From the NCBI GenBank assembly GCA_016193065.1, contig JACPSX010000036.1:1-10631 (forward strand): a stretch of 10,631 nt of DNA. The letters are read 5' to 3'. Origin of the DNA: Candidatus Tectimicrobiota bacterium (GTDB lineage Bacteria > JACPSX01). How positions within the stretch are numbered: position 1 is the first letter of the stretch; the number at the start of each line of letters is the position of its first letter. A program made the translations under genes and the position numbers. Below, piece after piece: positions 271-9,042 of this stretch. Below the pieces are notes generated by a model. The model saw nothing but the letters and a program-made list of their open reading frames with translations, was not told the DNA's origin and did no database searches.

Positions 271-615
271 GCGTGGTGGGGGGGAATTTTGGACGCCGGC
301 ACCTTGATCTACAGCTTCGACCGCGGCCCCGAGGGCACCATTGCGGGTAGGCTGTGGGGCTCCCGGGAGGATTCCAGCAAGGTTGTGGAACTAGGCATCC
401 TCCAGTCTTTGCTCCCTCCCGCGAGCGCTGGTCCCCTCGACGATCTGGTCGGCAAAGTGCTTTTTGCCCGGTTGGGGGAGCGATTTGTACGGGGCATCCG
501 GCACGGAAGGGCCCGCCCTCCCAACTTCGAGGATGGCCTCCGGGCGCAGGAGGTCATCGCTGCGATTTTGCGTTCGGCTGCGGAGGGTTCCCGTGTTCAG
601 CCTGACTACGGATGA
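187..615 (+). pseudogene. Gfo/Idh/MocA-family oxidoreductase, C-terminal remnant
   Basis: The last ~110 residues look like the C-terminal end of a Gfo/Idh/MocA NAD(P)-dependent oxidoreductase. The family-like part begins near residue 34 (about nt 286) with a GTLIYSFDR segment, a typical substrate-domain strand. It ends with the characteristic PNFEDGLRAQEVIAAILRSA helix, which closes most members. The N-terminal Rossmann NAD-binding domain and the catalytic EKP motif are absent, and stop codons at 94-96 and 136-138 block extension upstream in this frame. Residues 1-33, read from the nominal ATG at 187, fall in the hairpin-rich segment and are probably not protein; an ATG at 268 has no Shine-Dalgarno. 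The gene therefore looks 5'-truncated or interrupted, and a run of seven G at 278-284 marks the junction zone. Its stop overlaps the convergent regulator gene by 10 bp. Substrate cannot be inferred. Confidence 0.6.
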
Positions 616-1637
616 GAGCCGGAGGGAAGCCCATCGAGAAGCGCTAGTGCGGCTTCCTCGTCTGTGATGAGAATGTTGCAGTAACCCCCGGTCAGCACAC
701 CACGGATCGAGGGGGCCTTCTTTGCGCCGCCGGCGACGGCAATGACCGATTTGCCGTACTGCCGGGAGAGTTCCCTGAGACGGCTGGCCGGAACGGCCAG
801 CACCCGGCTCGTTAGCTTCCTGAGTTCTTCTCTCTCTACGATCTTCCCCTGGGCATCAAAGGGTTGGTAGTTGATCTCGCCGACCACTTCCAAAGCCAGG
901 AGCTGGTCCGGGCGAACTCCGAAGAATTCTGCCAGGGTGCAGAATCCCGGGGTATCCCTGCCGATGCTCCCGATCCCCAGGAGGGCCACGTCGACATTGC
1001 CGGCCTCCTCCAGGATCCTGCGGATTTCCTGATTCTGAAGGAGGAGCTTTCTTTCCCGGTCGATTTCCTCCAGAGGAGCAATGAGCTGGGCGTGAAGGGC
1101 GTAGGCAGTCACATGGGGACGGTATTTGGCGGCCATCATTCCCACCAGCGTGTTGGGGAAAAGGTCCACGAGGGTCAATGTGCTTTCGGCGGACAGCGGA
1201 TAGATCTTAAGGTCTCGGAAGTGATGCTCTCGCAGGTTCTTGATCGTATGGTAGAGGGTATAACCGCAAGAAAGCCCGACCTTGATTCCGTTGGCGGCGA
1301 CCCGTTCGAAATAGCGGGCCGCTGTCCAGCCCAGCTCCTCCTTGGTGTATTCTCCAAGGCCGCCGGGAATCACCACGGCATCCCTCAGGCCGAACTGCTC
1401 GATGAGAGCCGTTTCCAGTCGGGGGAGCTGGGGGAGGTTGAGTTCCACCCGCACGATTCCTTCGCCGTACGCTCGTTTCAGGAGTCTTGAGACCTTACTG
1501 TGAGAAAGCCCCAGGTGTTGGGCGATCTCCTTTTGATTCTTGTGGTGCCGGTAATACAAGAGGACACAGCTAATCATTTCCTTGAGTTCTTGACCGCTGT
1601 CCATCTCGCGGTGGGGAAGGTGGGCCTGAAACTTCAT
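606..1637 (-). CDS. SorC/CggR-type sugar-phosphate-responsive transcriptional regulator
   Basis: This is a DNA-binding regulator of the SorC/DeoR sensor family (343 aa). Residues ~26-66 form a helix-turn-helix, with NQKEIAQHLGLSHSKVSRLL as the turn and recognition helix. Residues ~69-343 match the SorC sugar-binding domain, including a DVALLGIGSIG segment and a C-terminal VAGGAKKAPSIRGVLTGGY segment that lines the phosphosugar pocket in relatives. The start at 1637 was chosen because AAAGAGGT (complement of 1643-1650) lies 5 nt upstream. The longer in-frame start at 1721 lies upstream of the -10 box of its predicted promoter. The gene diverges from an FBP aldolase/phosphatase, and a palindrome covers both promoters. 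Known relatives such as CggR respond to fructose-1,6-bisphosphate; I infer a similar phosphosugar effector and autoregulation. The SorC assignment is firm, the effector is not. Confidence 0.88.
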   Translation of the reverse strand: MKFQAHLPHREMDSGQELKEMISCVLLYYRHHKNQKEIAQHLGLSHSKVSRLLKRAYGEGIVRVELNLPQLPRLETALIEQFGLRDAVVIPGGLGEYTKEELGWTAARYFERVAANGIKVGLSCGYTLYHTIKNLREHHFRDLKIYPLSAESTLTLVDLFPNTLVGMMAAKYRPHVTAYALHAQLIAPLEEIDRERKLLLQNQEIRRILEEAGNVDVALLGIGSIGRDTPGFCTLAEFFGVRPDQLLALEVVGEINYQPFDAQGKIVEREELRKLTSRVLAVPASRLRELSRQYGKSVIAVAGGAKKAPSIRGVLTGGYCNILITDEEAALALLDGLPSGSHP

Positions 1638-1692: not shown

Positions 1693-1721
1693 TTGACACA
1701 TGGCATTATAGTCAATACCAT
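1693..1721 (+). promoter_or_regulatory. Predicted sigma70-type promoter of the FBP aldolase/phosphatase operon
   Basis: A perfect TTGACA -35 (1693-1698) and a TACCAT -10 (1716-1721) are separated by the optimal 17 bp. Transcription would start near 1728, about 115 nt before the GTG start at 1843. The spacer and -10 are filled by the inverted repeat at 1698-1723, so occupancy of that repeat would block polymerase. Confidence 0.65.
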
Positions 1722-1723
1722 GT
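1698..1723. promoter_or_regulatory. Inverted-repeat operator shared by the two divergent promoters
   Basis: The arms ACATGGCATT (1698-1707) and AATACCATGT (1714-1723) are inverted repeats matching at 9 of 10 positions across a 6-bp centre. The repeat lies between and over the -35/-10 boxes of both predicted promoters. Its place beside a SorC-family regulator gene makes it the most likely binding site for that protein; this is inference from position and symmetry. I saw no second copy in the window. Confidence 0.6.
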
Positions 1724-1734
1724 AAATATTTCAA
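1705..1734 (-). promoter_or_regulatory. Predicted sigma70-type promoter of the SorC regulator gene
   Basis: On the minus strand a TTGAAA -35 (complement of 1729-1734) is followed after 18 bp by a perfect TATAAT -10 (complement of 1705-1710). Transcription would start near 1698 and give a ~60-nt leader to the ATG at 1637. The -10 box lies inside the shared inverted repeat, so binding there should repress the regulator's own gene. Confidence 0.65.
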
Positions 1735-1842: not shown

Positions 1843-3276
1843 GTGGAAACAGTCCATTCTTACGACCGTGACAAGAAGGTTCCCCTGGAGGCCTATCACC
1901 AGTCCAAGGACGCCTTGAAGGACATGCCCGAGACCACGGTGCAGCGGATTCCCCTGACGAACCTCCCCAATATTTTTTCCTACAGATCGTACGTATTCTC
2001 CCCCAATCCGCAGATGGTGCAGAGGTTCGTGAAAGCTACGAAGGCCGACATCGGCGGGGTCGGAGGACATGTAGTCGCTGCCGAGGAAGTAAAGGCGCTG
2101 GTGACCCAGTTTGTCCTGGAGAACAACAGCTTTCGAGGGGAGCCTATCTTCTCGAGCTTCATCGCCACGCACACGGGAGACGATATCGGGGTGACGGGAA
2201 TCGTCTCGGAAAAGATTCCGCCGGAGGTCGTCGATCAGCTTCTCTGGGATGCCTTGATCGTCGCCACGGAGAAGGCTCGGGAGCTCGGTCTCTACGGGCC
2301 CGGTCAGGATCTCCTTGCCGATTCCTTTACGGGGAATTTGAAGGGGGCCGGGCCTGCTTCGGTCACTCTCCCCTTGCCGGTCCGATCCCACAACCCCTCT
2401 CAAACGGTCCTCCTGTCCTTTGCGGACAAGACGGAACCACCAGCGTTTAATTATTACGCCACCGGAGCCTACCTCCAGCCTCGCTTCAATACCGGGCTGG
2501 TCATTGCCGCCTCTCGGATGAAGCGAGGGTATATCTTTGATATTGTCGACTTGGACACCAAGGCCCAGGCCGTGGAAAGTGGCGTTCACCCCAGGGATGA
2601 GAAGGGGTTGGAATCCAAGATGGAAGAGCTGGGCCATGCCGGGGAACGGGTGATTAGCTTGCGGTCTCCCGAGGATCTCTTTGACATCGAAGCTTTGACA
2701 CGGTCCTCCCGATTCGTGGTGGCGCGAATCTACAGCCGGACTGAAGACGGCGAAAAGGGGGAACTCGGATACGTCGTATCAGCCGAGCGCCTGCACAATA
2801 TCAAGACGAAAAAGGGATTCGTCTACGGTGGTAAGGATGATCCGGTCCTGTTGGCTTTTGCCCAATCGGACTGGCCCGCCCCCGGCGAGATTACCTCTCC
2901 ATGGGCGAACTGCCCCATTGTGCCGGGAGATTGCCGGGGCAGCCATGGTCTTCATATTTTGCCCGTGCCCATTAACTGGCAAACTTCTTTCTGGTCGGGG
3001 CCGATCCTCTCCACCGTAACCTTGAGCATCAACATCCACTCGGGGCGCATTGGTGCCGTCTCCGACCAGTTCGCTCTCGGTACTCCCTGGGACTGGGTCC
3101 GGCATCGAGCATCCTCCCTGATGGTCCAGTTCCGGGCTGCCCACGGCATCAGGCAGCCGGCCACACTTCCCGAAGATGAATTGGAGTACCAGGAGGGCTG
3201 GAAGGAGAGGCGGGATCGTCTCTATAGACAATTTGCCAGCAACGGGGGCCGGGAGCCGGCAAAAATTCTGGGATAG
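1843..3276 (+). CDS. fbp: Fructose-1,6-bisphosphate aldolase/phosphatase (archaeal type, bifunctional)
   Basis: This cytosolic gluconeogenic enzyme condenses DHAP and glyceraldehyde-3-phosphate to FBP and then dephosphorylates it to fructose-6-phosphate, making gluconeogenesis one-directional. The sequence carries the family's blocks in order (GTG numbering): KADIGG with His76 (67-76), THTGDD metal ligands (109-114), GLYGPGQDLL (149-158), ADKTEP (194-199), VYGGKDDP with the Schiff-base Lys331 and catalytic Tyr328 (327-334), and RGSHG (365-369). All expected catalytic residues seen are present, so it should be active. The predicted protein has 477 aa against ~370-400 usual; ~66 residues precede the KADIGG block, where archaeal enzymes have only a few. 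The start is set by AAGGAGG 5 nt upstream. It leads a plus-strand operon with a TPR lipoprotein gene 6-70 nt downstream, and its promoter is overlapped by the SorC-type operator. Confidence 0.88.
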   Translation: METVHSYDRDKKVPLEAYHQSKDALKDMPETTVQRIPLTNLPNIFSYRSYVFSPNPQMVQRFVKATKADIGGVGGHVVAAEEVKALVTQFVLENNSFRGEPIFSSFIATHTGDDIGVTGIVSEKIPPEVVDQLLWDALIVATEKARELGLYGPGQDLLADSFTGNLKGAGPASVTLPLPVRSHNPSQTVLLSFADKTEPPAFNYYATGAYLQPRFNTGLVIAASRMKRGYIFDIVDLDTKAQAVESGVHPRDEKGLESKMEELGHAGERVISLRSPEDLFDIEALTRSSRFVVARIYSRTEDGEKGELGYVVSAERLHNIKTKKGFVYGGKDDPVLLAFAQSDWPAPGEITSPWANCPIVPGDCRGSHGLHILPVPINWQTSFWSGPILSTVTLSINIHSGRIGAVSDQFALGTPWDWVRHRASSLMVQFRAAHGIRQPATLPEDELEYQEGWKERRDRLYRQFASNGGREPAKILG

Positions 3277-8574: not shown

Positions 8575-8940
8575 TTATTCCTTGCCTTCCTCCGTTTTGA
8601 TCTTCAGTCTCTTGAGCCAAGCCTGCTCATCAAAGTGCTGGATGCAATGCTCTTCAAAGGCAATTTCCAGGGGTGTTAGCTTTCTCCCGTCGATGTGCTG
8701 TGCGCCGGTAGAAGAGGATTTCGCGGGGACTCCTTTCCCGTAGGCCTCTCGAACCTCGTCCACCTGGATGCCCGTGCTGCGAACTCTGAGCATGAGGACC
8801 AGACATGTATTATCCGTACCCAGCTTTTCCCGGGCAAAATTGGCCAGGGCCTTTCTTACGTGCTCCGATTTCGTGATAGCCTCGGAAATGGCGCGAGACA
8901 AATCCTCCAGCTCCTTGGAAGTTTTTCCCTCTTCGTACAT
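8575..8940 (-). CDS. Small hypothetical protein (121 aa)
   Basis: I do not recognise this soluble protein. It has a charged N-terminal helix (KELEDLSRAISEAITKSEHV), a mixed core that includes TCLVLMLRVRSTG, a flexible Ser-rich linker (AKSSSTGAQHIDG) and a C-terminal amphipathic helix ending in a Lys/Glu-rich tail. There is no signal peptide or membrane segment. ATG 8940 is chosen because AAAGGGGG (complement of 8950-8957) lies 9 nt upstream and because the longer in-frame start at 9042 falls in the -35 box of a strong predicted promoter. The gene therefore seems to be expressed alone, with a ~66-nt leader, although it lies on the same strand downstream of the phosphatase gene. Clean translation signals make it a credible real gene. 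Confidence 0.65.
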   Translation of the reverse strand: MYEEGKTSKELEDLSRAISEAITKSEHVRKALANFAREKLGTDNTCLVLMLRVRSTGIQVDEVREAYGKGVPAKSSSTGAQHIDGRKLTPLEIAFEEHCIQHFDEQAWLKRLKIKTEEGKE

Positions 8941-9012
8941 CGTTACGAACCCCCTTTCCGAGAACGGCTTTGAAAGGTCAGTCCTGGGCTCTGTGCTTTG
9001 AACGTCTGATTC

Positions 9013-9042
9013 AATATAGGTGAAGTTCCAAATGCCTGTCAA
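9013..9042 (-). promoter_or_regulatory. Near-consensus promoter of the small orphan gene
   Basis: The minus strand has a perfect TTGACA -35 (complement of 9037-9042), an 18-bp spacer and a TATATT -10 (complement of 9013-9018), matching consensus at 11 of 12 positions. The start point would be near 9006. Confidence 0.65.

Follow-up and report, generated by a model that had tools for sequence, protein, structure and literature searches.

The window, which is the whole 10,631-nucleotide stretch of DNA analysed here, contains a gene for a SorC/DeoR-type regulator next to a divergently transcribed gene for a fructose-1,6-bisphosphate (FBP) aldolase/phosphatase-like enzyme (Table 1). This arrangement raises the question of where the regulator would bind in the 205-bp intergenic region, and with what consequence for the two genes.

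Table 1. Coordinates of the divergent gene pair and of the elements between the two genes.
Feature	Position	Strand	Details
SorC/DeoR-type regulator	609-1637	-	HTH and PF04198 sugar-binding domain; ATG at 1637; GAGG RBS-like sequence upstream
OL position, degraded, TGCAATTTAGAATG	1661-1674	none	Left half kept, right half lost; 7/14 bases match
OR, putative main half-operator, TGAAATTAGTTTCT	1680-1693	none	Flush with -35; centre ≈-42 from plus-strand start and ≈+12 from minus-strand start
Promoter of aldolase/phosphatase gene	1693-1721	+	-35 TTGACA 1693-1698; 17-nt spacer; -10 TACCAT 1716-1721; 10/12
Inverted repeat ACATGGCATT-6-AATACCATGT	1698-1707 / 1714-1723	none	9/10 paired; 6-nt gap
Promoter of regulator gene	1734-1705	-	-35 TTGAAA 1734-1729; 18-nt spacer; -10 TATAAT 1710-1705; 11/12
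FBP aldolase/phosphatase-like enzyme	1843-3276	+	GTG start at 1843; PF01950, 6.4e-74

The regulator, the enzyme, and their relatives

The regulator matches PF04198 (1.3e-41; 143 bits compared to a Pfam cut-off of 27), has B. subtilis DeoR (8r7y; 3.8e-27) as its best solved relative, and aligns across the HTH and effector domain with DeoR 8r7y and SorC 2w48. As judged from its sequence, it belongs to the SorC family and has an HTH of the DeoR type, not the winged helix of CggR. It scores below the cut-off of the DeoR NCBIfam equivalog (143.5 compared to 420 bits) and has PLSAE/PLSGE where DeoR has QLKGG, with a serine in place of the lysine that we take to be an effector-site residue. The helix motif VSRLL is common to the window regulator, DeoR, and the orthologues, and R51 (our own numbering), the equivalent of DeoR R39, is kept. 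The recognition helix contains H46-S47-K48 in the window regulator compared to A-A-T in the orthologues, and DNA specificity may have shifted in the lineage of the window.

The enzyme likewise falls below the cut-off of its equivalog, NF041126 (242 compared to 520 bits), and is predicted to be a member of a divergent, longer subfamily of FBP aldolase/phosphatase-like proteins. Its YGGKDDP segment aligns to YVGKDDP of ST0318 and contains the equivalents of Tyr229 and Lys232, which are presumably the aldolase residues of FBP aldolase/phosphatase. An N-terminal extension of ≈60 residues before the FBPase_3 domain (window 1843-2020) and an insert near residues 238-266 are also present in the Rokubacteria and Tectomicrobia homologues and are unaligned in the solved archaeal enzymes. 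Glycolysis is plausible and flux in both directions is possible, because the same genome encodes three phosphofructokinase-family matches.

Searching the genome_contigs collection (84,980 species) with the enzyme as query returned 41 loci, nearly all from Rokubacteria (Methylomirabilota) and one from a Tectomicrobia genome, with identities mostly of 70-81% over the matched part. The Rokubacteria loci with enough sequence have a divergent, adjacent regulator that is 55-68% identical to that of the window. Among 95 Methylomirabilota genomes, 48 contain a regulator orthologue, all within four families, and the enzyme subfamily is also missing from most Rokubacteria without the regulator. The divergent pairing of regulator and FBP enzyme proposed in an earlier note on this DNA is thereby borne out, as the pair and its promoter geometry recur across Rokubacteria. 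As for the enzyme operon proposed in the same note, an extent that takes in the downstream TPR and glycosyltransferase genes is not conserved, since these genes are unlinked to the enzyme gene in Rokubacteria.

Two contigs found in these scans are unusual. One, present in two collections (L046:3-2575 and G368 C222; L182, L187), has two copies of the 3' part of the enzyme gene, covering residues 351-464 and, 1.4 kb on, residues 189-464, which reflects either partial duplication or a faulty assembly. The other is a 3,080-base contig assigned to an Omnitrophota MAG (L050:1-371) that contains the end of the enzyme gene (30/30 residues identical) and the start of a 90%-identical TPR protein, and it probably stems from the window's own lineage, misplaced in the bin of another organism. 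This nearest DNA begins with the end portion of the enzyme gene, and its genome yielded no regulator match, so that the closest lineage provided no intergenic region for comparison.

Interlocked promoters in the window and in relatives

The -10 box of each promoter falls within the -35/-10 span of the opposite one in the window, and the predicted starts at ≈1728 (plus strand) and ≈1698 (minus strand) are ≈30 bp apart. We shuffled the 205-bp intergenic region 3000 times with dinucleotide composition preserved: a plus-strand promoter of equal score appeared in 1.6% of the shuffles and a minus-strand promoter in 0.07%, and both never appeared jointly (0/3000). The promoter pair is thus well beyond chance, which confirms the earlier claim of two opposed sigma70-type promoters interlocked within 42 bp. 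Compared to bidirectional promoters, which are defined by overlapping -10 elements and starts 10-23 bp apart, the -10 boxes here (1705-1710 and 1716-1721) are separate. An Rfam search of the window found no RNA element. Elsewhere in the window, another near-consensus promoter is present at 9013-9042 on the minus strand (TTGACA-18-TATATT; 11/12). Its -35 begins at the first base of the ORF at 8575-9042, and the true start of this ORF is therefore probably an internal ATG (MYEEGKTS).

We compared 44 unique intergenic regions and a thinned set of 32 relatives. CTTGAC is present at the plus-strand -35 in all 44 unique regions, and a TATCCT-like plus-strand -10 follows at 17-18 nt in most relatives. 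An A[GT]TNTA element occurs 10-12 positions from the plus-strand -35 in 31 of the 32 thinned relatives; on the opposite strand it reads TACACT, TAGACT, TACAAT, or TAGAAT and is a predicted -10 box of the regulator gene, corresponding to TATAAT at offset 12 in the window. The minus-strand -35 is weaker but exceeds the shuffles (mean best match 3.00 compared to 1.99; sd 0.16), with nTGACn at a distance of 17-19 nt in 10 relatives, where 0.34 were expected. By these alignments, the interlocked geometry, with predicted starts ≈30 bp apart, is conserved in Rokubacteria. Separately, a different promoter-like element, GGAAACTATTGCAAT...GCATTTTCCTTGAC, recurs in about ten Rokubacteria genomes (L131, L134-L137, L139, L140, and related places); its TTGAC box is preceded by a conserved block.

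The inverted repeat over the -10 boxes

The earlier note had placed a single operator on a palindrome spanning both -10 boxes, where a bound regulator would turn off both promoters and so form a putative switch between glycolysis and gluconeogenesis. The repeat exists, and its right arm spans the entire plus-strand -10; however, its left arm covers only 3 bases (1705-1707) of the minus-strand -10. Shuffles of the 205-bp region contained an equally good inverted repeat (10-nt arms, at least 9 matched, loop of 3-20) in 10.3% of cases, and those of the 60-bp core in 3.5%, so that the palindrome by itself does not stand out from chance. Moreover, alignment beside the orthologous gene pairs revealed no conservation, as complementarity at this position in the 32 thinned relatives is 0.26, the same as background; the earlier note had named such an outcome as counting against its proposal. 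At this position, a few relatives carry different small repeats with differing centres, as tends to happen where two -10 boxes face each other. Genome-wide, ACATGGCATT-6-AATACCATGT gave only matches with 3 mismatches, near the rate of a reversed-pattern control, and no good second copy. The repeat at 1698-1723 is thus real but, as far as the alignment indicates, specific to the window, and we rejected it as a conserved operator.

Binding of the regulator to ACATGGCATT-6-AATACCATGT in the window itself is improbable, given that the repeat is absent at that position in relatives, arises in ≈10% of shuffles, and lacks a good second copy in its own genome. We nevertheless leave this arrangement a small share, because the specificity of the regulator may have shifted: the repeat is genuine and well positioned on both promoters, and the three helix residues that set the window regulator apart from its orthologues would allow a lineage-specific operator.

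A conserved palindrome upstream of the plus-strand -35

A different palindrome is conserved in the relatives. This element, [T/A]GAAA-N4-TTTCA (OL), is centred at -25.5 from the plus-strand -35, has a complementarity of 0.84 compared to a background of 0.25 (sd 0.11), and occurs at a single fixed offset in 31 of the 32 thinned relatives. A second element (OR), which reads TGAAR-N4-TTGCT in the best cases, lies between OL and the -35, 19 bp from OL centre to centre, and is weakly palindromic in relatives (score 0.48). In the window, TGAAATTAGTTTC occupies 1680-1693 immediately before TTGACA, in the same ungapped register as the weaker OR of the relatives. The regulator's predicted operator is thus most likely this upstream palindrome and not the -10 repeat, and it would consist of two parts, with OL clear and OR weak in the relatives.

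OL coincides in part with the first codons of the regulator gene in most relatives, as would be expected if the conserved blocks were merely two strong promoters and a leader or start region to which no regulator binds. We consider this explanation highly improbable. An in-frame stop follows OL in L030, L033, L037, L098, L082, and L083, which puts OL in the leader, where it is still kept; at least three lineages thus have OL in an untranslated leader, and coding is not the reason for its retention. Furthermore, OL is held at a fixed distance from the -35 outside the gene too, it gives AT-rich codons in genomes of high GC content, and its presence goes together with that of the regulator.

This co-occurrence was followed with a composite pattern, the OL palindrome joined to TTGCTTGAC, searched with 3 mismatches allowed in the 95 Methylomirabilota genomes. 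The composite site adjoins the regulator in 48/48 genomes that have it (contigs and coordinates matched by eye). In G364, the contig breaks off within the site. No further composite site was found in the 95 genomes at 0-1 mismatch, and the other matches had 2-3 mismatches and were scattered; the regulator, as judged from these searches, looks dedicated to a single locus. TGAAAN4TTTCNTTGAC gave 190 loose matches in the window's own genome compared to 124 in a control, and no clear regulon. As orthologue and composite site co-occur in all 48 genomes, the local regulator likely controls both genes. In the Tectomicrobia homologue, which has no neighbouring regulator, neither the palindrome nor the minus-strand -10 is present, although GAAATTAG remains before a likely -35.

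Proposed mechanism

We consider it probable, with moderate confidence, that this is an autoregulated SorC-family divergent control region with a predicted OL/OR operator and mutually exclusive promoters. Its promoters, their conservation, OL, and the co-occurrence are findings from sequence; we infer regulator binding, the direction of control, and the effector. The regulator, probably as a tetramer, would bind two adjacent TGAAA-N4-TTTCA-type half-operators at ≈-61 (OL) and ≈-42 (OR) from the enzyme start. The same DNA would correspond to ≈+12 to +31 of the regulator's own transcript, where bound protein could block elongation or promoter escape and so bring about autorepression. On the other side, regulator on OL/OR would contact the enzyme gene's -35, and repression of the enzyme might be relieved by a phosphosugar. 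The geometry further implies that the interlocked region would accommodate one RNA polymerase at a time.

Besides the conserved gene pair, the conserved promoter geometry, and OL with its co-occurrence with the regulator, support for this autoregulated operator comes from the Tectomicrobia homologue, which lacks palindrome and minus-strand -10 along with the adjacent regulator, and from the likeness of the putative operator to that of tetrameric DeoR together with the common VSRLL motif. Against it, the window has a good OR and a degraded OL, the opposite of the state in Rokubacteria, three recognition-helix residues of its regulator differ from the orthologues, OR is weakly palindromic in the relatives, and the 19 bp between OL and OR compares to ≈21-22 between the operator repeats of DeoR and CggR. 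Centres near -42 and -61 would also fit an activator.

These are classic activator positions, and the regulator could repress itself and activate the enzyme from ≈-61/-42, with polymerase exclusion producing a strict either/or flip switch. At bidirectional promoters, an activator of one transcript tends to lower the opposite one, because polymerases compete (PMC12825309). However, the plus-strand -35 comes close to consensus in the window as in all relatives, where an activator is usually not needed, and the SorC relatives studied best, DeoR and CggR, act as repressors. Repression of the enzyme is more likely than activation because of this near-consensus -35, and we regard the flip switch as unlikely, although it is the likeliest of the alternatives. 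If true, it would be a mode of control undescribed for SorC regulators and FBP aldolase/phosphatase genes in the literature that we found.

The autoregulated OL/OR region, as we favor it, predicts that a sugar-synthesis enzyme has a dedicated one-site regulator, with an operator and interlocked promoters, across an order that is uncultured and known only from environmental genomes. Our literature search found no paper on SorC control of FBP aldolase/phosphatase, nor on such control in Rokubacteria. The locus also illustrates how a comparison among relatives can redirect the assignment of an operator from a striking palindrome to a conserved one.

Comparison with known systems

B. subtilis DeoR resembles the window regulator in its HTH type, its sugar-binding domain, and the position of its gene next to the target. 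The DeoR tetramer binds ATTGAACAAAATTTCAAT and a downstream repeat at -60 to -21, and the dra-nupC-pdp operator consists of a TTGAA-N6-TTCAA palindrome with a second half near -35 (PMC11229326). The OL of one relative (L082), TGAAACAAATTTCA, matches the DeoR core TGAACAAAATTTCA at 12/14 positions. Unlike DeoR, the window regulator is divergent from its target, which is an anabolic enzyme, scores below the equivalog cut-off, and has the serine in place of the effector-site lysine; its putative half-operators are 19 bp apart, and the operator would lie about one helical turn further upstream.

B. subtilis CggR, which acts on the gapA operon as a tetramer on two half-operators and responds to FBP/DHAP (PMC11229326), is similar in that a SorC-family protein controls central sugar-phosphate metabolism from two half-operators. 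However, the DNA-binding domain of CggR is a winged helix, and its operator, of the CGGGAC type, lies downstream of the start; neither is seen in the window.

Finally, the E. coli bidirectional promoters share one common -10 and have starts 10, 18, or 23 bp apart (PMC12825309). Like the window pair, they place two divergent promoters in one polymerase footprint, such that use of one excludes the other, whereas in the window the -10 boxes are separate and the predicted starts ≈30 bp apart.
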